Part shown: positions 19,258-64,000 of the stretch, piece after piece
Layout of the letters: every line of letters begins with the position of its first letter
Numbering within the stretch: the stretch's first letter is position 1
Assembly: GCA_037043015.1 (NCBI GenBank)
Contig: CM073325.1
Coordinates: 5,435,001-5,499,000 of the forward strand
Length of the DNA: 64,000 nt
Reading direction: 5' to 3'
DNA from: Bryum argenteum
Taxonomy: Eukaryota; Streptophyta; Bryopsida; Bryales; Bryaceae
Made by a program: the position numbers and the translations under genes
The notes under the pieces: model-generated
Seen by the model: the letters and a program-made list of their open reading frames with translations, nothing else
Told to the model about the DNA's origin: nothing
Databases searched by the model: none

Positions 19258-19523
19258 TTAACCCCTAACTCTTCTTAAAACCCGAATCGGGTTTTGGAGG
19301 TTCTCGCAGGAGAAAAACTCAGCCCACTTTGACCATTATAATCTCACAAATGAGAAAGAATGAACGGTTCAAATTTAGTATGTGAGAAGAATGTCAAGTG
19401 AACATTGAGATCTTACGATTGAATATTTTGAATAATGCTTAGATTGAGTTTTTGAGCTTATTCTAAAGGAAGGTCAAATTTTGAGACTAAAACCGTTTTG
19501 CAACAAGAAGATTTAGGGGTTAA
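19258..19523. mobile_element. TTAA-flanked MITE, complete copy (258 bp between TTAAs)
   Basis: TTAA (19258-19261) is followed by CCCCTAACTCTTCTT, and the right end reads AAGAAGATTTAGGGG followed by TTAA (19520-19523). The ends are inverted repeats. The interior carries the family signature: a hairpin around AACCCGAATCGGGTT, and ACTTTGACCATTATAATCTCACAAATGAG. There is no coding capacity. TTAA target duplication with C-rich terminal repeats is characteristic of the piggyBac superfamily, so a piggyBac-type MITE is inferred. Confidence 0.75.
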
Positions 19524-21292
19524 AGTAATTGATTAGTTTTTTTTGTTTTAGTTGGAGTTATGTATTTTATAATTGAATGAGTTTCAAAATTCACAGTATA
19601 ACTCTTGACAAGAAAAAACATCCTTTTGAGGTTGTTGTGAATAGAATGTCTATTACACCTATCTTTGGATGTATGCCCATGGGTCATAACACCAATGGTG
19701 AGACTACTTATCCCTCTTGCGGTGAACACGATACTAGTTCTTCTCTAAACACTTGTGCTTATGAGATAATCAATATTTCATCCTCAAAGAATTTTGAGGT
19801 ATTCATACACCAAGGTCCAAAAACTCCAACACCATAGTTGGTACACGAAGGTGGTGAGTATTATGCCAGCACAAGGATTGGCATATCGTAACGTATCAAT
19901 ACTCAAAACTAATACTTTAGATTCATCACTTTTACTTTGGAATTACCAAACCTAAGATTGGTTTGGTAGATTGGTTGAAATTTCCAACTAGAGATATCAA
20001 CCCTTGTCTTGCAAAGGACCCCGTAAAAATAATGAATAAATTCCATAAGTTAGTCTTGCAATAGTAAAAATTGCGAAGTAAAATGGAGTTTGAAATTACC
20101 ATTACTTGCACTAACGCATGTGCCACATCATTATAATGTCTTTGATTATGCAAAGATAATCACCATAAGAACTAGAACCATGAAAAAAAATAATCTAGAA
20201 ACACCATTGCAAACATTCTGCCAAATCAATTACTAAACCTATCTCTAGACTTACAACTAGAAGGTTGTTAATCATTTTTTAGAGTCGATGTACTGCTAGA
20301 AAAACGTCTAAAGAAAATGCTTTATCTATGTCATTGCAATGGTAAAAACTCTTTTTTTTGTTTCACAAAAAGAAAATATAAACCTCAAAGAACATGTACC
20401 TAACTCGCCAAGAAACAAGATTTCAAAGAACCTCATACCAAATTTACTACTAAACTACTTTTTTGGGGGGCTCCACACCACTTATTTCCTTCTCTACAAC
20501 AAACCAGAAAAACTTTCATTTCAACTTTGAACATTATAATCTCACAAACAATGAAGTATTTCAATTTGAGATTTGGTGCATATGATCATGAACAAGATCC
20601 TACAATTCCAATCCTCAAACTATAAAACAAAAGTGAAAAATCCTAGCTTGCATTGAAAGCGGGCCTTTTCCGAAATCAAGCCTTGTAGCTTTAGGAATTA
20701 ATTTACACTTTTTTAGTCAACCCACCTCAATACAAACCTCAACAACCAAATTAATCAAAAAAATAATTTCATAAAAATAAATGCACCAATAGATTTCAAA
20801 AGTAATATCCATTGTAGGCACACCTAATATTAAAAAGACCCCATTTTTTAAAGATTAAAAATGGCAGGCAAGGTTTATCTGGATAAAACTATCCAGCCTG
20901 GGACATGGTCAATATAGGAAAACCTAAACTTAGCCCTAAAAGTATTTAACTGAATATCCATTCCTTCCTATTTCTATTATTATCCACCTTGTTGACAGAT
21001 GTGCTAGTATCTTTTCAAATATGCTATTTCTTACCCAACACTAATTTGCCAAGTGGGCTATCTATCTTGCAGATTCATATCCTTTTATAACCTTTATCCT
21101 TTTATGACTTTATCTTAATCGGTAAAGATTCCTCTCGTGTTTAAAAAAACAAAACAATCCTTTAGTGCTATTGGATTGGATGTGCTATAGTTTTTTTAAC
21201 CCTTTAATGTAATAATCAATTAGTGGATGTGCTTTAGTTTTTTATAAGCCATTAATGTATTAATGAACTAATGGATGTCCTTTAGGATGATC

Positions 21293-31614: not shown

Positions 31615-31814
31615 ATCATTAAAAAGCTTGAGAACTAATTGTGACCACTCCCACCGTAAGATCTCAAAGATAACTTGACAAACTACTTGCATTCCAAATC
31701 TAATCCGTGGATTCTACTTTGTTTGTGAGATTGTAAATGTCAAAGTTTGCTGAATTTTTTTCTTGCGCAAACCCTCAAAACATGTTCCGGGATTTAAAGA
31801 TCTCTAGGGGTTAA
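31615..31814. mobile_element. TTAA-type MITE fragment (left end lost)
   Basis: The right end GATCTCTAGGGG precedes TTAA (31811-31814). The interior has CACCGTAAGATCTCAAAGATAACTTGACA and TTTGTGAGATTGTAAATGTCAAAG, as in the complete copy at 59.6 kb. No left terminus is recognisable. The orthologous fragment in the second duplicated block lies at about 41630-41819, so insertion predates the duplication. Confidence 0.6.
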
Positions 31815-31953: not shown

Positions 31954-34900
31954 CTATAATTTGAGTCTCACAATCGGTATAAACAAGGATCTACACACTA
32001 AACAATACTTATACTTGCACCCTCGTGGATAAAATTTGAAATGCCTGCAGATGGTGCACTCCACTTGACATACTACACCGGATCTCCTATCAGTCCTATG
32101 TCGATCTGTACAAACTTTGCACCAGTTCGAATTGCAGAAGGGTGGTGAATGATGGCACTGCACAATTTTAAACAATCATCACATGCAATCTTAGTCATAT
32201 ACAACACTCTCAAAGCACTCAAATCTAATGATGTTTTGGAATTGATCTGCACAACTCTAATGTGTTGATACCAAACTAGACTTTTGGAAATTAGTTAATC
32301 ACCTAACTTATTTGCACTGTCTTAGTATATTCAACCTCATAAGCATAATCAATCAATATTGCTTTTGTTAACTTGATTGCAATTTTCACCCGATGGATCT
32401 TGAGTGAAAGTAACTATTCAAAGTACAAGCATAACTACTACAAAATAACATCTCAACAACACTATTATGAAAACATTACTTCATACACTTCAAACAACCA
32501 ACATTAATTGGGAAATTGTAATAGTTTGGAAAGAGTGATTGACTGGAAGAACCTCCAATCACTTCTAATTACAACTTTCTCAATAACAAACATTTTGATT
32601 TATATGCTTTTGAGGAATGGAAATGTATTCATTCAAGTAAAATTAAAATGTGAATATATCACCATACATACCTGGTGGTACCTGTGAGTGTCATGCTTGA
32701 TTTCTTTATAATTCTTCCAAGGACATGTAGAATCTTTAAGCGAGCAACAGCCATGGACACACACCTCTTGTAAATTTGGCATCTCGCTAAGGTTGGGTAG
32801 CGGGCAAAGATTTGTGCAGTTGCTCAAGTCTAGTGAAGTCAATTTTAATAATTGATCCACACCTTGAATTGTAAAATTCTGACATTCTAATTTCAGTGTC
32901 ATTAATCCTGACAGCTTGCCTAGTCCTTGTACCTCAATGGAGTTACGTATACACAGGTTGAGGGCAGACAACTCGCGCAATCTTCCAAGTGGACTTACAT
33001 CAACTCTTTGAGTGATACACAAGTTATCGTCAAGATCTCCTTCCATTTTGATGCACAAAGTCTTAAGATATTGCAAGTTTGAGGCACATTTCAACAATCC
33101 TTCCAAAGGCATCTTGCTTCGTAATCCAATACCAATGTCAAGACATAGTTCTTCTAGTGCCTTCAGTTTCTCAAATATCTCTGATTGAATCTCAATATAA
33201 TCCACCAACTCCTCCCATAGCTTTATCCTTAAGGATTTGAGATTGCAACACTCTTAAAAATGGAATCTGCTTCAAACCAACCCCCCATAACTCAACAAAC
33301 CAAAGATCTGGAAGACACCCATTCTCATCGTCCCCACTTGAATTACAAACAATCTCCACCAAGCCTTCTACGCGCAAGATCAACACACGCAGGCTCTTCA
33401 AGCACCCCAAATCAAGAGTGGAATTCTCTGCCACACCTTCATGAATCATGAGGCATTCCAACTTCCTACATTGCAGCAACTGTTTGGGATTGATAGAGAT
33501 CTTCGTAAAAAAAGATCCCACACCTCCCACACAAAATCTCCTCACCGAACCAACGTTTATTCCACCACGCCAATTCAACGAGTGCACCCACCACTCACTT
33601 TCTTTGCTACCTTCTTTCATAACCAATGATTGTGCAAACTCTATATACAAGTCATGTAATTTAAGAGTAGGGCTTCCCTCATAAATAAGAGACTTCCGTT
33701 GCAAGTCCTTCACCTGCTCCAGAATTAGCATCAAGAAATCATTAGATATTACCTACATCTATTTTTCAAAAAGTAGATACAAAGAAAAAATACAAGTCGC
33801 ATGCCTTGATATCAATCTACATTGGAATGTTCAATTCCCACCTTTCTTTCTGCAATGACAGGAGAAATGCCATGCAATTTGGCAATTAATGACACTCGCG
33901 ATTCGTAATTCGACGGCTCTCGGAGGATCCATTCGCTCCAATAAGTATAGTTCAACAATAAGGCCACATCTAAGAAGACCAATTTCCCCATGTCTGACAA
34001 TGTTGAGTAGTTCATACCCACAATATAGTTCACTCTCTTCGATTCTCTACATTCTTGTAGTTTGTCCTTAAACGAAATATGCTCCTTCCACTTCATGATA
34101 TTTTCCTTGTCAACGTCGTGGAAATAAGTCCCCAATGCTCTTATAACAAGTGGATGGTATTGTTGATTTATATATCCATCTTCTTCAAATCGGCATTGCT
34201 TAAGACATGCTTCCACAATCTCATCCTCACAAGGCTGCAGCCTGCATATTAATTTCTTTGGAGCAGCCACTGAGAGAAACAACTCTCTTGCTTCATGCTT
34301 TTCCAACCTTGAGATGGGCTTACAATACTTTTCCTCCCCAAGTATGGAATCCAAAATTGCTCGACTCCGCGATGTGACCATCACCTTGCTACCACTTGCA
34401 ACTACAGTCTTCACCAAACCACGTGCTTCCTCTCGAGAGGACTCAAGGTCCCCAACATTATCCACAGCTAAAAACATTGATGGTTGGCATTCCAATCGCC
34501 TTCGTAAACAATCCAGTCCCTACACAGCAAGCAAACCACTCTCAAATATCCCATGAGTCATATTCTCGTATCAGCCAAAAATATCACAAGTTCCAATACA
34601 GAGTCCTTACAAGGATGAAAAAGTATCCACAAGAAGCACCCATCAACTACGACCACCACTAGATGTCCAATTACTAACCTGCCACTCTGAATCGATGCTG
34701 TCAACAATCCTCGTGTCCAAACCACTCAATCCTCGAAGTATAGATTTTATCCTTGAAACCCGACCCTTTTCAGCACTCTGCTCCTCCCCACCGCTTGGCA
34801 GCTCCACGTAACATACCCGCGGACCATACTCCTCCTGAAAATAACTGCACATAGCTCTGCACAACGTGGATTTCCCCACCCCACCAAGCCCGTATAATCC

Positions 34901-35903
34901 TAGATAATAACATCCTTCTCTGCAAATAATCCCCTCATATGTCCCCCCCTCAGATGTCCCGTCCTCGAACATCCTTGATGTTATCTGGAAGGATTCCAAC
35001 ATGCATCAAGCTTAAGTTGCAGCTCAAGTTTGCACATTGTCATTTCAAGGTTTCCAAAACAGTTATACTACTCTCTGCCATGTACACGCCTTCCACATAC
35101 CTCACAAAGGCGCTTGTATCCTCGGATGTCATCAATCTTATACTTCATCACTGGAGGCACTTTGTTGCAAATCTCCTCCACCACGGCATTCCTATACGTC
35201 ACTTCTGAAGTCCCATACTTGCCAAACTCCACGCCGTTGTATGCCCGTAACTCTCGCACAGCATCATCCCACGAGGCAATCTCCTCTCCCGAAACCGCAC
35301 CCTCCTGCACCATTTTCATCCACGACTCCCTCCACTGTGTCTCCACTCTCTCTGCAGAAATGTCACTCGGCGACAGCTTATAGAACACAGGGAACAGTTT
35401 CAGATTTGGATTTGCCCCCTTCATGGACTTCACAAAGGTGCTCAGCTCCAGCATGGGCCATTTCGATCTCAAATAGCCTTCTGACAACACCACCACCGCC
35501 AACAAGCATTTTTCTGCCGCTGAGAGAATCGTAGGAGGGAACTTGTCTCCCTTTGGTAAACTGTCGCGATCTTGGTCGAAGAAAGGATTTTGGTTCATCC
35601 GTTTTAGATCCTCGTGGAGTTGCTCAACAAAGTCTTTCTCATTCCCGCTGTGACTTAAAAATATGGTGTGCTTCGGAGTGGGCTGAGGAAGACGTCTGCA
35701 GAAATCAACACCACACATTACTCCACGCAGACAATCAAATCACATTCCTCACCAGCCAGTGTCTTGACATTTGGGGAGAAACTCGAAACCAAATAAAAAC
35801 TCAAAGGGCCAAAGTATCTTCAACTTAAGCATGAGCCCTGGCGTAATTAGAAATGATGAACATACCGCCTCTTCGCTGATGGCTCTGTTTCATGCTCTGC
35901 CAT
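31954..35903 (-). CDS. TIR-NBS-LRR immune receptor gene 1, frameshifted in the LRR part
   Basis: Intracellular NLR-type receptor. Minus-strand exons: 35866-35903, 35101-35695 (TIR), 34679-34984 (P-loop), 33842-34519 (rest of NBS), 32672-33713 (LHD motif and LRR) and 31954-32157 (Cys-rich tail). TIR domain spans about residues 21-190 (HTIFLSHSG; putative catalytic Glu96 in KWPMLELST). P-loop GLGGVGKST near 243-251. Kinase-2-like FLAVDNV near 329-335. RNBS-B KVMVTSRSR, GLPL-like HPLVIRALG, MHD-like LKLHDL. LRRs follow. Exon 5 is 2 nt short of copy 2: around 33240-33265, TTTTTAAGAGTGTTGC stands where copy 2 has two more bases. The first frame therefore stops at 33192 and the downstream LRR frame is open from 33208. 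The product is probably truncated unless the site is spliced out. The ATG at 35903 gives MAEHETEP, conserved in copy 2. The last exon is inferred from matching splice sites and phase in both copies. Confidence 0.85.
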
Positions 35904-40840: not shown

Positions 40841-41907
40841 AAAGGAAGAAGGTTGTTGTGAGCAAAATCGAAAAATGTTGAGTCTCGTTTGTAGAAGTAC
40901 AGTAAGGGACAAGTGAATATTGGTGCTGTGTATGCCAAAGTGTTAGAATAAGGACATTACATTATCTTGATGTTTAAATGGGATGGGAGTTTTTCCATAC
41001 TTGATTTAGGTGGTTAGACCAACGCAGTTTGGTGGATATAGGTTGCTTTATTTTGAGTTTATTGATCCACTAAGATCTTTGATAGCTTAAATGGAATTTT
41101 GCAATTTTGGCTTTTGGTAAATTTTGCATCAATTCTATATCTCATGATCTCACAATTTAGACACTTCCTATGGTTGAAATTAATTATGGCACTTGAGGTA
41201 GTAATTACCTTCAAGAATGAAAGCAACAAAGACTTTAAATAAGATTTTGACCTTAACGGTTGCATGTTACATTTTTTGGTTTTTGAACTCCAAAACACAC
41301 AAAGATTTTCAATTTCATGGTTTTGCATCAAACTACAAATGGTCTTTTGGCTTCAAGGTGTTGATTAGAAAAATGGCAAAATAAACGTCTTTGGATTGAG
41401 GTAGGAATTCGAACAAGTTATATTTAAGAATTTAATTGGAATTTAAAATAAGTTTAATTTGAGAAATTCATTACATTGAAAAATGCAAATACTTAACTGC
41501 ATCCAATTGCTAGGAATGTTTAATTCAATTCAACAAGCTATAGCTTTTAAAGCTTTTTATTGCCACCATCCTAGAACTCAAAAGTTTGTCTTGAGTTTGT
41601 ATTGTACCGCCTATTGCAATCGTTAAAAAGCTTGAGAACTAATTGTCATCACTCCCACCGTCAGATCTCAAAGATAACTTGACATACTACTTGCATGCCA
41701 AATTTGAACTGTCAATTCTGCATTGATTGTGAGATTGTAATTGTCGAAGTTGGATGAATTTTGTTCTTGCGCAAACCCTCAAAACCTGTTTTGGGATTTT
41801 AAGGATCTCTAGGGGTTAAAATCAAAGGACTCACTACTCAACTACTTATGAGATTGAGGCATTGAATTTACACAAAACCATTTGAGGTACACGTTCATTT
41901 AGAGACA

Positions 41908-44900
41908 TCATATGAATTGCCTCAATATCGGTTCAAACAAGGATTTACACACAAAACAATTCTCTCCCTTGCACCTTCCTGGATAAAGTTCAAAATGCTC
42001 GCAGATTTCGCACTCCTGTTGACATATTACACCGAATCTCAAATGTCGATGAATGCAAACTAAGCAATTGTCAAAATTGCAAACGGGATGATGGCACTGC
42101 ACAATTTCAAACCATCATCACATGCAATCTTAGTCATATACAACACTCTCAAAGCACTCAAATCTCATGCTATTTTGGAATTGATTTGTACAACTCTAGT
42201 GTGTTGATACCAAACTAGACTTTTGGAAAATAATTAATCACCTACCTTATTTGCAATGTCATAGTATTTTCAACCTCAGAAGCATTATCAATCAATATTG
42301 CTTCTGTTAACTTGATTGCAATTCCCAATGGACCTTGTGTGAAAGTACCTATTCGCAGTACAAGCTTAACTACTACAAAATAATATCTCAACATCACTAT
42401 TATGAAAACATTACTTCATACACTTCAAAAACAACAAACAGTTATTGGAAAATAGTAATAGTTTGAAAAAAGTCATTTCTAATGACAACTTTCTCAAATA
42501 CAAACATTTGTATTCATATACTTTTGAGGAATGGAAAGGTTTTCATTCAAGTGAAATTAAAATGTGAATATATCACCATACATACCTGGTGGTGGTGGTA
42601 TCTGTGAGTGCCATGCTTGATTTCTTTATAATTCTTCCAAGGACACGTAGAATCTTCAAGCGAACAACACTCATGGACACAAACCTCTTGTAAATTAGGC
42701 ATCTCGCTAAGGTTCGGTAGTAGGCAAAGATTTTTGCACTCGCTCAAGTCTAGTGAAGTCAATTTTGATAATTGATCCATACCTTCGATTGTAGAATTCT
42801 TACATCATAATTTCAATGTCATTAATCCTGATAGCTTGCGAAGTCCTTGTACCTCCCTTGTGTAGTTGCATAGGGAAAGGTTGAGGGCAGACAACTCTCG
42901 CAAGCCTCCAAGTGGACTTACATCAACTCTTTGAGTGTTACACACGTCGTGGTCATCAATGTCCTCAATATCCAAAATCTTGAGGGATTGCAAGTTTGAG
43001 GCACAACTCAAAAATCCTTCAAAAGGCATCTCACTTTGAGATGCATTAGAGTACAGAAGATATATTTCTTCTAATGCCTTTAATTTCTCAAATATTTGGG
43101 GTTTGGTCTCAATTCCATCCACCAACTCCAAGCACCATGGATTTATCCATAACCTTTTGAGATTGTAACATTCTGCTATAAATGAAATCCGCTCCACATC
43201 TCTCCCACACAACTGAAAAAACTCAAGCTTTGGAAGACACCCTTCATTACCATCCCCTTTCGTACTACAAACAATCTCCACCAAGCCCTCTACATCCAAG
43301 ATCAACACACGCAGGCTCTTCATGCACCCCAAATCAAGAATGGAATTCTTTACAACCTGAGCTTCATATATGATAAGGCACTCTAACATCTCACATTGTT
43401 GCAGTTGTTTAGGATTAATGATGATCTTCGATTTACCTTCCACACAAAATCTCCTCACTAAACCAACATTTATTCCACATGGCGAATTCACCGAGTGCAC
43501 CCACCACTCCCTTTCTCTGCTACCTTCTTTCATAACCAATGATTGTGCAAACTCTATATACAAGTCATGTAATTTAAGAGTAGGGCTTCCCTCATAGATT
43601 AGAGACTTCCGCTGCAAGTCCTTCACCTGCTCAAAAATCAGCACCATAGAATCATTAGATTTTACTAACATCTATCTTTCCAAAAGAAGATGAGAAGAAA
43701 ACATACAAGACGCATGCCTAGAATATCAACAATCTACAATGGAGTGATAAATTCCCACCTTTCTCTCTGCCATAATTGGAGAAATGCCATGCAATGCCGC
43801 AATAAATGACACTTGCCTTTCGTAATCCAACGTATCCAGAGTAAAGATGCAACAATCGCTCCAAAAAGTATAACTCAACAATAAGGCCACATCTAAGAAG
43901 ACCAATTTCCCCATGTCTGACAATGTAAAGTAGTTCAGACCCACAATATCGTTCACTCGCTTCGATTCTCTACACTCTTGTAGTTTGTTCTCAACCAAAA
44001 TATGCTCCTTCCACTTCATGATATTTTCTTTGTCGACGTCGTGGAAATAACTCCCCAATGCTCTTATAACAAGTGGATGGTATTGTTGCTTTGCATATCC
44101 ATCCTCAGCAAATTGACATTGTCCAAGACATGCTTCCACTATCTCATCTTCATATAGTTGTAACTTGCTTAATGATTTTTTTGGAGCAGCCACAGAGAGA
44201 AGCAACTCTCTTGCTTCATGCTTTTCCAACCTTGATATGGGTTTAGAATACTTTTCCTCCCCAAATATGGAATCCAAAATTGCTCGACTCCGTGATGTGA
44301 CCATCACCTTGCTAGCAGTTGCAACTACAGTCTTCACCAAACCACGCGCTTCCTCTCGAGAGGACTCAACGTCCCCAACATTATCCACAGCAAGAAACAC
44401 TGCTGGTTGACCTTCCAATCGCCTTCGTAAGCATTCCAGTCCCTACACACCAAGCAACAAATCTCAAGTAGCCAATGAGTCTTATTCTCGTATCAGCCTA
44501 CATTATCACAAGTTCCAATACAAAGTCCGGACATGGCTGAATACGTATCCACAAGAAGCACCCATCAACCACGACCACGACCAGGATGCCCTAGTTCTTA
44601 CCTGCGACTCTGAATCGATGCTGTCAACAATCCTCGTGTCCAAACCACTCAATCCTCGAAGTATAGTTTTTATCCTTGAAACCCGACCCTTTTTAGCACT
44701 CTGCTCACTCTGGTCCTCCGCATCGCTTGGCAGCTCCACGTAACATACCCGCGGACCATACTCCTCCTGAAAATAACTGCACATAGCTTTGCACAGCGTG
44801 GATTTTCCCACCCCACCAAGCCCGTATAATCCTAGATAATAACATCCTTTTCTACAAATAATCTCCTCAGATGTCCCCTCCTCAGATGTCCCCTCCTCAA

Positions 44901-45888
44901 ACATCCTTGATGTTATCTGTAAGGATTCCAACATGCATCAAGCTTAGAGGCGTTTGCACCTCAAGTATGCACATTGTCATTTCAAGGTTTAAAATTGCAA
45001 CTCAAGTTTGCACATTGTCATTTCATGGTTTCCAAACCAGTTATACTACTCTCTGCCATATAGACGCCTTCCACATACCTCACAAAGGCGTCCATATCCT
45101 CGGATGTCATCAGTCTTATACTTCAGCACTGGAGGCACTTTGTTGCATATCTCCTCCACCACGGCTTTCCTATACTTCACTTCTGAAGTCCCATACTTGC
45201 CAAACTCCACGCCGTTGTATGCCCGTAACTCTCGCACAGCATCACTCCACGAGGCAATCTCCTCTGCCGATATCGCACCCTCCTGCACCAATTTCTTCCA
45301 CGACTCCCTCCACTGTATCTCCACTCTCTCTGCAGAAATGTAACTCGGCGACAGCTTATAGAACACGGGAAACAGTTTCAGATTCGGATTTGCCCCCTTC
45401 ATGGCCTTCACAAAGGTGCTCAGCACCAGCATGGGCCATTTCGATCTCAAATAGCCTTCTGACAGCACCACCACTGCCAACAAGCATTGTTCTGCCGCTG
45501 AGAGAATCCTAGGAGGGAACTTGTCTCCCTTCGGTAAACTGTCGGGATCTTGGTCGAAGAAAGGATTATGATCCATCCGTTTTAGATCCTCGTGGAGTTG
45601 CTCAACAAAGTCTTTCTCATCCCCGCTGTGACTTAGAAATATGGTGTGCTTGGAAGTGGGCTGAGGAAGACATCTGCAGACATCAACACCACACGAAGAA
45701 TGTAAGCAGACATTCAAATCTCAATCCTCAGCAGCTAGTGACTTGACATTCTGGCAGAAACTCGGAACCAAAGAGGTCCAAAACTTCAAGGCACTGGAGT
45801 ATATGAACTATGAGGATGAGCTCTGTCGTCATTAAAATTGACATACATACCGCCTTTTGGGTGCTGGCTCTGATTCATGCTCTGCCAT
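41908..45888 (-). CDS. TIR-NBS-LRR immune receptor gene 2, in-frame TGA in the LRR part
   Basis: Same architecture as gene 1. Minus-strand exons: 45851-45888, 45079-45673, 44602-44916, 43759-44442, 42586-43626 and 41908-42096. Phases close for 953 codons plus stop if one internal TGA is ignored. That TGA (42805-42807) stands where gene 1 has GAA, after SGLMTLKL, and removes the last LRRs and the Cys-rich exon. TIR domain about residues 21-190; position 96, Glu in gene 1 and the usual TIR NADase glutamate, is Val here (KWPMLVLST). P-loop GLGGVGKST, kinase-2-like FLAVDNV, KVMVTSRSR and LKLHDL are intact. The splice acceptor before exon 3 differs by two bases from gene 1 (TTACAG against TTCCAG) but still works. 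The start gives MAEHESEP. The gene may encode a truncated TIR-NBS protein or be decaying. Confidence 0.85.
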
Positions 45889-53066: not shown

Positions 53067-53537
53067 TTACCCAGTGGAGGATGCGGCTTGCTGAGCGATT
53101 CTCTGCCTTGCACGATTAGAGCGCAGCAAGCATTCGATGGAGCAGAAAGTCACGTCTGGGTTCATCGAGGTAATGGTGCCCTGGCAGCTCCCGCACACGC
53201 GTAGCTCCGCAGCACGAGACTCCCGCAGCGGCCGCGAGCGTAGCGCATACGCGGCGCAACCATTCGAGATATACGGCTGCAGACGGTTTGTATCGACGAA
53301 GTTGCTTATGGCGTCAAAGCTCACGACGTGGGTTCTGAATGTGTGCTTCAGCACTTGCAAGTTGGGATGACTGGCATGCCCTCCTCCATCTTCGAATTCG
53401 GATGCTTTCAATGGCCCCTCCGTGCACCGAATGCAAAAGAAGTTTCGAATGTATGGAGCCTGCAGAGAGTATTCTGCTGCGATGAAGCGCTCCAGCAGAA
53501 GCTGGGTGCTGGCTGTGGCGATTCCGGGGCTCTCCAT
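53067..53537 (-). CDS. divergent PLATZ-type zinc-dependent DNA-binding protein (exon)
   Basis: PLATZ proteins are plant-specific zinc-binding transcription factors. The frame encodes 156 residues with the family order: LLLERFIAAEYS (cf. WL..LL..KFF), FFCIRC (Cys35, Cys38), a His pair in HASHPN (54, 57), VLKHTFRTHVVSFDAI (cf. IRRY..HDV...D), RLQPYISNGCAAYALRSRPL (cf. VQ.Y.INSAKVVFL..RP), then CGSC (115, 118) and FCSIEC (132, 136). All zinc-ligand positions I expect are present, but the residues between diverge from typical members. The first CPHC-type pair is not seen and is apparently replaced by the KASEFEDGGG stretch. The frame ends 2 nt after a strong donor (GTAAGT at 53070), so the transcript may splice to a further 3' exon. 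An acceptor-like CTTAG just upstream (about 53573) suggests a 5' exon too. Confidence 0.7.
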   Translation of the reverse strand: MESPGIATASTQLLLERFIAAEYSLQAPYIRNFFCIRCTEGPLKASEFEDGGGHASHPNLQVLKHTFRTHVVSFDAISNFVDTNRLQPYISNGCAAYALRSRPLRESRAAELRVCGSCQGTITSMNPDVTFCSIECLLRSNRARQRIAQQAASSTG

Positions 53538-54206
53538 ATCCTCCTGTCCGAGGCTGGTTTCTTTCTGCTAAGCACAAGGTTGGTCACCGTTAGTTCATTG
53601 AAAAGCTCCAAGAGCGGAAAATAGTCAGAAGAGAAGTCACTACAATTACCAAACATACACGGGGCAAGATAAGCAATTATAAAATTGATGGTTCTTCAGG
53701 ACTCCACAAAGAAGTAAGTACCTACAATGAAATCTTGATGTATCTTATCTAGAATCTTGGGACTAGATGAGTACGTAGTAATTGCCTCTTCATAATATTG
53801 GTGAATGGTTATGAACAACATGTGATTGACGTATACGTGGCCGATGGCACACACTTACAATGTTAAATGTGTCGATTGTGGGTGATAGCCAATTAGCGAC
53901 ATGTGGGTAATGAATCAAAAGCCTACACGTTGTTCATGGCCAAGTCACAATGTCACACATGGCTCATGACGAACTTATAGCATTTTATGTGGTTAGTAGC
54001 GTGTCATGATTTGCATGGCTACTAATCTTTTTCAAATGGAGGTATAAATAGGAAATCATATTGTGAACCAACATGTGTTTGCACCATTCTCCTACGGTGA
54101 GTTTTGTGCATTTGCACAAAATTGGTTGGCAATATTGCAACAAGGAAGTATTCCTCACGATAATATTTTCACCTACTACCAAGTGCTCAAGAACAACATG
54201 CATGCC

Positions 54207-55099
54207 TTAACCCCTAACTTTCCTTGAAGCCCGAAACGGGCTTTTGCAATTCCGGGCAGCCTAGATGAAGGGGTTAAAAGTAATATTTTTGCCTAAAAAT
54301 TTTATCGAGTCCTCCTTATACTGCAAAGTGTATGTGGTAAAATTTTCAAAGTCAAATTCCAACTTTCGAGTCTTCTAGGACGATCCTTGGGTTGCGAGCC
54401 GAGATGGGGCAGCTCAAAAAAGTGACTTTTTTGAATTTTTTTTTTTGAAACATGATCATTACTAAATCACTACTCAAATTTCAAAGTGACTCAAGTCAAA
54501 AAGTTTACCAATTTTACAAGGGCAGCCTCCAAAAAAAATTTAAACCAATCTTCCCAATACCCAAAAAAACTCTACCTCTAAGCACTCGTGGGGGTGCAAA
54601 CCGATTTCTATACTTTTTTTAAAACTTCCAACCGTAAGATCTTGTACCTAAGAATATGCCTGATTACTCTTCAAAAAATCGACCGTTGGATGTTTACCAT
54701 TTGAGAGATCATAACATCCAAAGTTTGTCTCCCAAGTTTTTTTGGGTATTCCGAAGATTGGTTCTAAAGTTTTTTGGAGGCTGCCCTTGTAAAATTGGTA
54801 AGCTTTTTGACTTGAGTCACTTTGAAGTTCGAGTAGTGATTTAGTAATGATCATGTTTCAAAAAAAAAAATTCAAAAAAGTCACTTTTTTGAGCTGCCCC
54901 ATCTCGGCTCGCAACCCAAGGATCGTCCTAGAAGACTCGAAAGTTGGAATTTGAATTTGCAAATTTTACCACATACACTTTGTAGTATAAGGAGGACTCG
55001 ATAAAATTTTTAGGCAAAAATATTACTTTTAACCCCTTCATCTAGGCTGCCCGGAATTGCAAAAGCCCGTTTCGGGCTTCAAGGAAAGTTAGGGGTTAA
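54207..55099. mobile_element. fold-back TTAA element, 361-bp inverted arms
   Basis: TTAA (54207-54210) is followed by CCCCTAACTTTCCTTGAAGC, and its inverse ends at TTAA (55096-55099). The left arm 54211-54571 and right arm 54735-55095 are near-perfect inverted repeats of equal length (361 bp) around a 163-bp loop. The loop carries the blocks seen in the small MITEs (AACCGTAAGATCTTG, CCGTTGGATGTTTACCATTTGAGAG). There is no open frame for a transposase. It lies between the PLATZ exon and the 55.4-55.9 kb frame, perhaps inside an intron. Confidence 0.85.
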
Positions 55100-55432
55100 G
55101 TTATATAGTTTGAAATGGTGTTGAGACTTATCACTTACTCTATAAAAATAATTAACACTCAAATGTGGGTGAATGTTGGTGAGAACAAGTGTCGGTTGAT
55201 CTCTTGCAGAGTCATATTAAGTGGTTCCGAGCATTCACTTTAAAGTCTTCTCAACTCTTGGCCCTAAGCACGAATTGTTTTTGTGTAAGCTGAGCCATTA
55301 ATCCTTCTTCATTCAATATCTCACTCGGACCATAAATTTCGCACTACTTAACTAGTAAATTTCAAGTACCCACCAATTTCCCCTTTCTCAGCGCCATATT
55401 CCTCAATAAACCTCAACTCAACGAAGTAGAGG

Positions 55433-55858: not shown

Positions 55859-55923
55859 TGCAGAGATTCGTAAGCATGATGGGTGGATGGGCAGTGGACA
55901 GGTTGTAGGTGGATCGCGAGGCT

Positions 55924-57223
55924 ATGGATGAGATATGCAATGACAATCCAGGGCCAGGCGCGTACTGCACACGAGACAGATACACAACGCGCGCTGCGCC
56001 CATCTACTCCATCGGGCAGAAGTTCCGAGGTCCATGCAATGCAGATCAGCCAGGGCCGGGAGCGTATGAGCCAAGGCTGGGGCGGTGTGGCCCGTCGTAT
56101 ACCATCCCGGCGCGATTCGGCCCGCGCTCTAAGGACCAGTTTCCGGGCCCCGGCGCGTACTGCTCCGAGGTAGGATACACGAAGCAGTGCCCGCCTTCGT
56201 ACAGCATTGCCAGTAAGTTCGCGGGTTGCGCAGGCGACAGGGTTCCCGGCCCCGGCAGCTACGAGGCTCGCTCAGGCTTAAGCGGCCCTGCGTACTCGCT
56301 CGCGGCCCGCATGCGCGGCGCGTCCAAGCCCTCCACGCCAGGGCCCGGCGCGTACACCAGCCGGTTCGCCTCCGGCGCTCCCTCGTACAGCATCGCCCTC
56401 CGGCCCCAGAGCGCTAGAGGGGAGCACGTCCCCGGCCCCGGCTCGTACGACCCGAATCCTCAATCGTGCATGCCTGCCTACAGCCTCGCAAAACGGTGCG
56501 GCACCGCGCCCACGGACCCAAACCCAGGCCCGGGCTCCTATAATCCAGACAGGGGCGACCGGGGCGTTTCGTACTCAATCTCACGAAGGTTCGGTGACGG
56601 ATCTCGCGATTGTGTCCCAGGACCCGGCGAGTACGACCCACTTCGACGATCTGGTAAGCAACTCACCCAACTCACCAAAAAGGAATGTCGCATCTTTCCA
56701 TTGGCTGCAAAGAGTCAGTGCAAATTGTGATATTGGAGCTTGGGGTTTGGCAGGGGCTCCGGCATATAGTCTCGCGGCGAAGCCAGGGAGTAGGACGCGC
56801 GACAACTACCCAGGACCCGGGAGTTACAGTCACGGGCTAAGCGCGGGTCCATCATACAGCATAGCGAGCCGATTTGCAAGCGGATGCGGGGACAGGGTAC
56901 CAGGACCCGGGAGTTACGAGCCGCGCCTGCGGAGTGACGCCCCAAGCTACAGCTTGGCGACGCGAACGAAGAAGCGTTGCGGGGATGTAAACCCGGGACC
57001 TGGCTCTTACGACCCCAACTTGGGTGGCTGCATTCCGGCATTCAGCATTGCCAAGAGACTGGGGCCCGGGACTGGTGATAATGTTCCAGGACCCGGGAGT
57101 TATCACGTCAAGCCCCGCAATGACGGCCCCGCGTACAGCATCCAGGGTCGTCACCCCCGCAAGTGCCAGGACCAGCACAAACGGGGAGGGGATAACTCGT
57201 ACCGCGACTGCGGCCAATACTGA
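55924..57223 (+). CDS. SHIPPO-repeat (PGPGxY, STPGR-type) axonemal protein
   Basis: Exons 55924-56653 and 56754-57223 join in phase (CGA TCT G|GG GCT) to give 399 aa. The protein is almost entirely about twelve repeats of roughly 32 residues: PGPG(A/S/E)Y, a variable spacer, P-x-Y-S-(I/L)-A-x-(R/K)-F, then a Gly/basic linker and a ring of Asp/Pro residues before the next PGPG. This is the SHIPPO repeat of ODF3 and CIMAP proteins, which in animals and algae associate with flagellar microtubules, partly in the doublet lumen. In a land plant this implies a role in motile sperm; that is inference from the family. High GC and the repeats explain the long shadow frames on the opposite strand. The ATG at 55924 is the first in frame; an in-frame GTG lies 15 nt upstream. 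Confidence 0.9.
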
Positions 57224-57654: not shown

Positions 57655-58311
57655 TTTTGGTGTTGCTCGGATGCTCAGCAAATTTCCTAATGCTAAGAGT
57701 GAGTAAGTGGTTGAGATTTGGCACATTTGGTTACGAGCACAACCAACTTCACTCTATACTAAAATGAAATGACATTGTACGAAGGAAGAAAAGTTGGTGA
57801 ATTTTGCAATAGAACGGGAGCACATGGAGGAGAAGTGTTATTGTTTATGTAGCTCATGTCACGAGTTTGAACTTCTGAGATTTAATTCAGAAATACTTTT
57901 CACCAATTCCACTCTATATATCATATGAGGTCTTCATTTGTGAAAAATGATCTCTTTTATAGTTCTGAGTCAATTGAGGTTGTTTGTGATTTTCCTGCCT
58001 AGTAGCATGAAGCTTACATTCTCAAAAAGATTTAAAGTTCAATAGAATGTGCAATATTCTCTGCTTGCAAAAATAAAAGCTAGAGCAAGAGCACAGACAT
58101 CAAGAGTGCCTACTTGCTAGGTTTTGTTGATTGATTTCTACAATTCAGAGATTGTGGAAAAGTAACAACATCCATGCAAAATCGTGCAAAATCATGATGT
58201 CGAATGAATTTAGGAAATTTTGATGAGATTTTTCTTGGCATTTTGATTTTAATGCATCGAAGATGTTTGGAAAAACTTTGCTAAAAGTTATGTGGGCTTC
58301 AGCTTACATTC
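57655..58311. repeat. long direct repeat, copy 1
   Basis: Near-identical to 63351-64000, in the same orientation, 5.7 kb apart. The match begins at TTTGGTGTTG and runs through ACGAAGGAAGAAAAGTTGG and AATGCATCGAAGATGTTTGG. Copy 2 runs off the window, so the true end is unknown. The pair could be LTRs of a large non-autonomous retroelement or simply a dispersed repeat. No primer-binding site or coding region was seen between them. Confidence 0.85.
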
Positions 58312-59589: not shown

Positions 59590-59857
59590 TTAACCCCTAA
59601 ATTTCCTTGTGGCAAAACGGTCTAAGTTAAAAAAATTGACCTGCCTTTAGATTAAGCTCAAAAAATCTCAATTTAAGAATATGTTAAAAGATTCAACCGT
59701 AAGATCTCAAAGTTCACTTGACATGCTTCTCGCATACCAAATTTGAACCGTTCATTCTATATCATTTGTGAGATTATAATGGTCAAAGTTGGCTGAGTTT
59801 TTCTCTTGCGGGAACCTCCAAAACCCGTTTCGGGTTTTAAGGAAAGTTAGGGGTTAA
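59590..59857. mobile_element. TTAA-flanked MITE, complete copy (260 bp)
   Basis: TTAA (59590-59593) then CCCCTAAATTTCC. The right end GGAAAGTTAGGGG is before TTAA (59854-59857). Near the right end, AACCCGTTTCGGGTT is a short palindrome shared with the copies at 19.3 and 54.2 kb. Interior blocks are AACCGTAAGATCTCAAAG and GAGATTATAATGGTCAAAGT. Non-coding. Confidence 0.8.
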
Positions 59858-62673: not shown

Positions 62674-63355
62674 TTAACCCCTAAAAATCCCGGCGTTTCC
62701 TCGACCTCCATAACCAAAAACTGGCATTTTCCACCTTCGTTGGGAAATGGGGAAATGGAGAAACTTTTTTTTTCTCGTTTTAGACTTTGAACCGTAAGAT
62801 CTTGCACCTAACTTTTATACAAAGAACTAGTAAACATTTCAACCGTTGGATGTTTGTCATTTGTGAGATCGTAACAATCAAACTTTGACCAACACTTTTT
62901 TTTGCCGCTGTGTGAGAGACATTGTCTACATGGTGCCAAGGGCAACTTGATGATTGTTACCCCAAATATTTTTCCCTCATTTCTTTTCATGTAGCTAATC
63001 AAGTTGGGTAGGCTTATGCAAAATTTTAGAGACCAATTCCACTTTTTGACCTTAATGTAAAATATTTTATGAAAGAAGGTCTAGAAACAACCATATAGTA
63101 AAACAAGCACCACATATGATAAATTTAAATTGAGAAAAATCTGGACGGTGAGTAGGTGAATTTATGATCATGTGAATTTTGAAATAAAAAAATCTTGGAA
63201 AAAATCCAAAATCTCAAATTTTGGCAATTTTTGAAAGAAAAAATTGTAAAATTACCTGAAATTGTGAAGATTGTTTTTGAAAGTTATGGAGGTTGCCCTT
63301 GTGAAAGTAGTAGACTTTTTGACTTTGGATACTTTGGAATTTGAATAGTAATTTG
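62674..63355. mobile_element. degraded TTAA-type element related to the fold-back copy
   Basis: Left end TTAA (62674-62677) CCCCTAAAAATCCCGG. The loop-type blocks AACCGTAAGATCTTGCACCTA and CAACCGTTGGATGTTTGTCATTTG follow. Near 63275-63355, GTTATGGAGGTTGCCCTTGTGAAA and GACTTTTTGACTTTGGATACTTTGGA match the inner right arm of the 54.2-kb element. No right terminus is found before the direct repeat that begins at 63351. Confidence 0.5.
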
Positions 63356-64000
63356 GTGTTGTTCCGATGTTGAGCAAATTTTCTAATGCTAAGAGTGAGT
63401 AAGTGGTTGAGATTTGGCACATTTGGTTACGAGCACAACCAACTTCACTCTATACTAAAATGAAATGACATTGTACGAAGGAAGAAAAGTTGGTGAATTT
63501 TGCAATAGAACGGGAGCACATGGAGGAGAAGTGTTATTGTTTATGTAGCTCATGTCACGAGTTTGAACTTCTGAGATTCAACTCAGAAATACTTTTCACC
63601 AATTCCACTCTACATATCATATGAGGTCTTCATTTGTGAAAAATGATCTCTTTTATAGTTCTGAGTCAATTGAGGTTGTTTGTGATTTTCCTGCCTAGTA
63701 GCATGAAGCTTACATTCTCAAAAGGACTTGAAGTTGAATAGAATGTGCAATATTCTCTACTTGCAAAAACAAAAGCTAGAAAAGGAGCACGTACATCAAG
63801 AGTGCCTGCTTGCTTGGTTTTGTTGATTGATTTCTACAATTCAGAGATCGTGGAAAAGTAACCCGTGCAAAATCGTGCAAAATCGTTATGTCGAATGAAT
63901 TTGAGAAATTTTGATGACATTTCTCTTGGCATTTTGATTTTAATGCATCGAAGATGTTTGGAAAAACTTTGCTAAAAGTTATGTGGGCTTTAACTTACAT
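63351..64000. repeat. long direct repeat, copy 2 (runs off the window)
   Basis: Same orientation and near-identical to 57655-58311, with scattered substitutions and one gap near 63861. It starts immediately after a degraded TTAA-type element. Confidence 0.85.

Follow-up and report, generated by a model that had tools for sequence, protein, structure and literature searches.

Two tandem TIR-NBS-LRR (TNL) genes, copies A and B, lie ~10 kb apart on the minus strand of the window (the whole stretch of 64,000 nucleotides analyzed, C5:5435001-5499000 of its own genome), and behind the LRR of each is a predicted exon encoding a tail with ten cysteines. The favoured interpretation, held with somewhat better than even confidence, is that this is the terminal exon, as predicted, in a small and likely moss-restricted TNL subfamily, and that it would encode a compact, probably zinc-stabilized post-LRR module in pathogen recognition. 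The observation of this exon in an earlier note on the DNA was confirmed as a whole, and the interpretation given there was partly supported.

The six predicted coding exons of both copies follow the order short first exon, TIR, P-loop, NB-ARC, MHD-like/LRR and cysteine exon, separated by predicted GT-AG introns (Table 1). The N-terminal TIR was recognized by Pfam in copy A, and TIR chains of L6 and RUN1 match both copies by sequence. The presence of an NB-ARC with P-loop was established by a Pfam match above the cut-off in copy A and by the GLGGVGKS motif in A and B. Matches to Pfam LRR families were all sub-threshold in copy A and in the closest homologue, the Ceratodon purpureus TNL M758_5G174500 (P0001); a Foldseek search with a low-confidence model of P0001 returned RPP1 as the best match, at low TM-scores (0.30/0.26). 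A dispersed repeat of ~160-270 bp closely follows each TNL copy (31653-31814 and 41657-41819) and also occurs at 59696-59857 and 19258-19524. Elsewhere the window contains an inverted repeat (54206-54571 / 54735-55100) with arms of ~366 bp that are 97% identical around a short centre, and a direct repeat (57656-58309 / 63352-64000), 94% identical over 654 columns and reaching the window end, that perhaps represents the paired ends of a mobile element. A SHIPPO sperm-tail repeat protein is encoded at 55909-56730 on the plus strand (7.9e-27) and a PLATZ transcription-factor exon at 53067-53567 on the minus strand (5.8e-9).

Table 1. Positions of the two TNL copies in the window and of the further tail exons in the same genome.
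Feature	Position	Strand	Remarks
Copy A gene	35903-31954	minus	six predicted coding exons
Copy A first coding exon	35866..35903	minus	begins MAEHETEPSAKR..; agrees with start of Ceratodon P0001
Copy A TIR exon	35101..35695	minus	Pfam TIR 2.3e-15; L6/RUN1 TIR structures by sequence
Copy A NB exon	34679..34984	minus	P-loop GLGGVGKS
Copy A NB-ARC exon (second part)	33842..34519	minus	Pfam NB-ARC 9.6e-6
Copy A MHD-like/LRR exon	32672..33713	minus	net loss of 2 nt compared with copy B
Copy A intron, LRR exon to tail exon	32158..32671	minus	GTATGT...GTGCAG, 514 bp
Copy A ten-cysteine tail exon	31957..32157	minus	67 codons; stop 31954-31956; homologous to P0001 C-terminus
Copy B gene	45888-41908	minus	six predicted coding exons
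Copy B first coding exon	45851..45888	minus	
Copy B TIR exon	45079..45673	minus	WPMLVL, valine codon 45424-45426
Copy B NB exon	44602..44916	minus	P-loop
Copy B NB-ARC exon (second part)	43759..44442	minus	180/226 residues identical to copy A
Copy B MHD-like/LRR exon	42586..43626	minus	in-frame TGA 42805-42807
Copy B intron, LRR exon to tail exon	42097..42585	minus	489 bp
Copy B ten-cysteine tail exon	41911..42096	minus	62 codons; stop 41908-41910
L042	C2:33.59 Mb	minus	complete tail, ten Cys plus one more
L043	C2:33.58 Mb	plus	truncated tail without C1 and C8-C10, ends after C7
L044	C2:10.95 Mb	plus	open LRR exon, decayed tail

The last intron has the boundaries that the earlier note had claimed. 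The donor CAG/GTATGT was found at 32672/32671 in copy A and 42586/42585 in copy B, the acceptor TTGTGCAG/TGC at 32158/32157 and 42097/42096, and the local reading frame in both copies agrees with phase 0 at donor and acceptor. The ten Cys occur at the claimed spacings in both tails, of 67 aa in A and 62 aa in B. All ten were spared while 27 of the 62 aligned codons differ in amino acid, in agreement with the claim that Cys are kept among diverged residues. The tail indels are of 6 and 9 nt, both multiples of three. The predicted splice into the tail, which the earlier note had deduced from these signals, is supported in that the annotated Ceratodon TNL runs from LRR directly into the tail and the last intron has GT-AG boundaries in all five copies found in the genome. 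Acceptors of these five introns end in TTGTGCAG and their lengths are 489-527 bp. The last intron of copy A is 91% identical to that of copy B over aligned bases; in the four other pairs tested only short parts of the intron bodies were alignable.

The position of the exon, ~500 bp behind the LRR and with its own stop, is what would be expected of an independent small cysteine-rich gene behind the TNL and unspliced to it. Since neither copy has an ATG between the preceding in-frame stop and the acceptor and the tail encodes no Met, the exon cannot by itself form an ATG-started gene, and this candidate was rejected. The Ceratodon protein moreover is a fusion of receptor and tail, and an independent gene is considered highly improbable.

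The statement of the earlier note that the receptors end in the ten-Cys exon does not hold for the copies as assembled, in which frame lesions precede the tail; both lesions had been missed there. In the LRR exon, two bases of copy B are absent from copy A (between 33255 and 33254), and the shifted frame stops at 33192. The LRR exon of copy B has an in-frame TGA. With the frameshift in A and the stop in B, neither copy as assembled is therefore readable from TIR/NB-ARC through to the tail. The copies also differ in the TIR, where A keeps WPMLEL, with Glu at the catalytic position, and B has Val at that position. The Val aligns with the mutated residue of RUN1 chain 7s2z_A, an E100A mutant by title, and the Glu-containing motif was matched in 41 of 43 homologues, the pattern being unmatched in the remaining two. 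The replacement is a second sign that copy B would lack NADase signalling. Since the lesions of A and B lie before the tail and the TIR of B has lost the catalytic Glu, the two copies are expected to give at most tail-less products now. The results are a warning that a convincing exon may sit behind a broken receptor frame.

Homologues were identified with the spliced protein of copy B as query, with X at the stop, which yielded 43 proteins at E <= 0.001 among 7990 candidates scored. The best match, P0001, has 63% identity across 99% of the query length. P0001 shares with the window copies the TIR-NB-ARC-LRR architecture and a homologous ten-Cys tail, ending ..KHQ-CHQPFCNQTGCKVCLDRHRRSGVTCEMQVFCEICDHLKNNPAGCMWYHDYWGCIVCELML with ten of ten Cys present. 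It differs from them in being annotated as an unbroken 953-aa protein, in its short end after C10, and in tail spacing, the C5-C6 interval being x5 and the C8-C9 interval x8 where the window copies have x3 and x4. Searching the protein database with tail A alone returned no candidate, and with the tail region of P0001 only P0001 itself; this search needs shared exact words, so that absence from it is weak evidence. Restriction of the tail to mosses, as judged from such word-dependent searches, is likely.

The C-termini of a second group of Ceratodon TNLs were also compared. A motif C-L-x-P-[YH] near the C-terminus, which resembles the tail start C-H-[QH]-P-[FV]-C, was present in six of the ten proteins P0002-P0011 (P0004, P0005 and P0008-P0011), and apart from those six only in P0001 among the 43 homologues. 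The six differ from the tail in that few Cys follow the motif (three more in P0008). Matches of the tail profile to these Ceratodon TNL ends were not significant (P0044 and P0045, the translations of L042 and L043, were also among the targets and are left out of account), and the end of P0008, when searched in the window's own genome, had no counterpart there (best E 2.1). The C-termini of the second group are possibly shortened relatives of the tail.

The window's own genome (258,844,377 bases, 25 contigs) was searched with tail queries up to E 10, the match counts being lower bounds. Tail B gave at least three matches, namely both window exons and a weak hit (E 0.62) on the tail of L042 on C2. 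The tail of L042 gave at least five, which included all the five tail exons at E 9e-48 to 0.044. The Ceratodon tail gave at least five as well, corresponding to four of the five tail exons and one place on C6; the latter (E 0.34) contains three stops, appears unrelated and was taken as chance. In a TIR search with more than 150 matches, the five exons that scored highest are those followed by the five tail places. Among the more distant TNLs of this genome, four were read in the 3' direction for 2.3 kb each (L045-L048) and contained no ten-Cys tail, and the tail therefore looks dispensable for TNLs in general. Behind the LRR of the distant TNL at L047 (~1130-2300, minus-strand reading) is a 390-aa open frame with the motif GETGVGKSTFINALC, which we take to be a GTPase-like P-loop motif; the frame is possibly a fusion or a neighbour.

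The state of the five genomic copies is uneven. L042, taken together with L016, is open from ATG to tail, encodes 1015 aa without a stop and shares 59.8% identity with P0001 across 1000 columns. The third intron of L042 starts with AT in place of GT, and an in-frame GT lies 18 bases upstream; L042 either would use a cryptic donor or is itself damaged. The L042 tail is identical to that of A at 32 of 61 residues and to that of B at 23 of 60, with the ten Cys kept. The LRR of L043 has an apparent frame change, and Cys have been lost in two of the five genomic tails (L043 and L044). The receptor-plus-tail frame is not intact in four of the five copies, the fifth being L042 with its AT donor. A continuous frame from TIR to C-terminus, absent in A and B, is present in annotated P0001 and, with the one AT donor, in L042. 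All ten Cys are kept in each of the four complete tails (A, B, L042 and P0001), which come from two species.

The divergence between A and B was determined exon by exon and intron by intron. No other exon diverges as much as the tail, in which 48 of 186 aligned bases differ (25.8%), compared with 177 of 1024 (17.3%) in the LRR exon and 37 of 595 (6.2%) in the TIR exon. Differences amounted to 44 of 487 (9.0%) in intron 5 and 54 of 494 (10.9%) in the 3' flank. Fisher tests of tail divergence gave 7e-8 against intron 5, 4e-6 against the 3' flank and 0.008 against the LRR exon. The values for the other introns are 24.7% (intron 1), 6.0% (intron 2), 15.8% (intron 3) and 19.5% (intron 4). Along the gene the differences range from 2 to 29 per 100 aligned bases, with maxima of 29 in intron 1, 28 in the LRR and 26 in the tail. 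Since introns 1, 3 and 4 and a single LRR stretch are also divergent, it may be intron 5 that is exceptionally similar between the copies, and not the tail that is exceptionally divergent.

The NG86 estimates for the tail were dN 0.326 and dS 0.275, a dN/dS of ~1.2 that is not separable from 1. Positive selection on the tail was sought and not demonstrated (bootstrap P(dN>dS) = 0.71). The probability of sparing ten of ten Cys with 27 of 62 residues differing was 0.0017 by the hypergeometric distribution and 0.0005 by simulation of random substitution, values that are not strict tests in that the Cys were chosen after the fact. According to the earlier note, dN/dS near 1 across the exon with Cys losses in other copies would refute its claim. 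This applies in part, through the ratio just given and the losses in L043 and L044; against a full refutation, the complete tails retain every one of the ten Cys.

In the tail, dS (~0.27) exceeds the intron 5 distance (0.096) about threefold, an indication that conversion or separate exon lineages played a part. Recombination is expected between tandem TNL duplicates. It is conceivable, at a probability appreciably below even, that the tails of A and B derive from different older receptor lineages and that intron 5 and the flank were homogenized, in which case no selection on the tail surface would be needed. Gene conversion or unequal crossing-over fits the excess of tail dS over the intron 5 distance, and the uneven divergence along the gene, including introns that range from 6.0% to 24.7%, is consistent with such a mosaic. 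Alone it does not explain the spared Cys, although it is combinable with the interpretation of the tail as a recognition module.

A second explanation of the divergence is decay. The tail would have been a working exon in an ancestor, the subfamily would now be disappearing from this genome, and relaxed constraint in dying genes would be the source of the divergence between the A and B tails. The frameshift of A, the stop and catalytic Glu loss of B, the truncated tail and apparent frame change of L043 and the decayed tail of L044 are all in agreement with loss, as are the dN/dS ratio and a tail divergence that approaches that of intron 1, as under neutral drift. Against decay are the sparing of ten of ten Cys and the restriction of both tail indels to multiples of three, an adjacent intron and 3' flank that are far less divergent than the tail, and the ten Cys intact in L042 and in Ceratodon P0001. 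On this evidence decay as the main explanation is rather unlikely.

The alignments were read as one leading Cys followed by three units C-x(3-10)-C-x-[VILA]-C, and in the four complete tails a His follows the first two units (R-H after C4, x-H after C7). For the recognition module favoured here, the following steps are proposed. Splicing would join the LRR exon to the tail exon through the phase-0 intron. The Cys, with the His after C4 and C7, may bind zinc in three C-x(3-10)-C-x-hydrophobic-C units, each of which would lead into a short helix. The module may work beside the LRR as C-JID does in RPP1 and ROQ1, with a ligand surface that would vary on a Cys scaffold that is kept. The ten Cys kept in the four complete tails are no more than suggestive of zinc binding.

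Structure predictions were of low confidence. AlphaFold gave a mean pLDDT of 54.6 and pTM 0.39 for tail A with four sequences, and a mean of 61.8 and pTM 0.40 for full-length P0001 with 15 rows, in which the tail blocks were about 33-58. Three short helices were predicted in the tail in both runs, and the first Cys of a C-x2-C, or the residue that follows it, is where each helix begins; the two runs had different lead sequences and four tail rows in common, and confidence was low in each. Foldseek against the PDB with the tail model returned nothing up to E 10.

The ligand order of RING fingers is C3HC4 or C3H2C3, with a His needed between C5 and C6. The tail shares C-x2-C pairs with a RING finger such as that of TRIM5 (2ecv), but is unlike it in having ten Cys and no invariant His between C5 and C6. 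A PDB sequence search with the tail revealed no significant relative, and a profile of the five tails had the TRIM5 RING as its sole PDB match up to E 10, at a non-significant E = 0.16; neither the ligand order nor the profile match of a RING was thus found in the tail. None of the four complete tails matched a Pfam family, with a limit of E 1 for A and B and of E 10 for P0001 and L042. Homology to a known non-NLR family, by which an integrated (decoy) domain is recognized, was not found for the tail in Pfam or, at significance, in the PDB. The possibility was considered that the tail is nevertheless a RING-like or other known zinc finger, with an E3 or nucleic-acid function, carried by the TNL as an integrated domain. 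In addition to the TRIM5 match, zinc fingers are among the integrated domains of non-flowering-plant NLRs, according to the available part of PMC11218826. In view of the non-significant E value, the lack of Pfam matches in the complete tails and the missing C5-C6 His, this possibility is improbable.

To our knowledge, little has been described of what takes the place of C-JID in bryophyte TNLs, and a Pfam search of P0001 up to E 10 did not return C-JID, the jelly-roll/Ig domain PF20160. A literature search recognized no paper, from title or abstract start, as describing a ten-Cys tail of this kind. The available text of PMC11218826 reports that TIR-NLRs have expanded in mosses and that some non-flowering-plant NLRs have zinc-finger integrated domains; the word 'cysteine' is absent from its main text. 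A lineage-restricted domain in which the Cys scaffold is conserved and the surface varies would be a clear candidate for a recognition module. In its most specific form, which is put forward tentatively and as rather doubtful, the interpretation would be that of a post-LRR TNL module evolved in mosses, a new threefold Cys/His metal-knuckle with a frozen Cys scaffold and a surface that conversion and selection have diversified, in the role that C-JID has in flowering plants.

The nearest known systems for comparison are C-JID, or the post-LRR (PL) domain, of eudicot TNLs such as RPP1 and ROQ1 and the PL exons of peach, which according to the available parts of PMC4851768 and PMC9153377 occupy the same position as the tail, directly after the LRR and often in an exon of their own. 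In the portion of PMC4851768 consulted, 55% of peach TNLs (108/195) have TIR-NB-NLL-LRR-PL exons; since such exons are common in peach TNL genes, a separate post-LRR exon is not unusual as such. The tail differs in size and composition, with 60-73 aa and ten Cys compared with peach PL exons that average 578 bp (PMC4851768, same portion). The post-LRR sequence of such TNLs matches C-JID. According to the available part of PMC9153377, C-JID makes the binding of effectors by RPP1 and ROQ1 stronger; what the moss tail has in common with it is the position directly behind the LRR.
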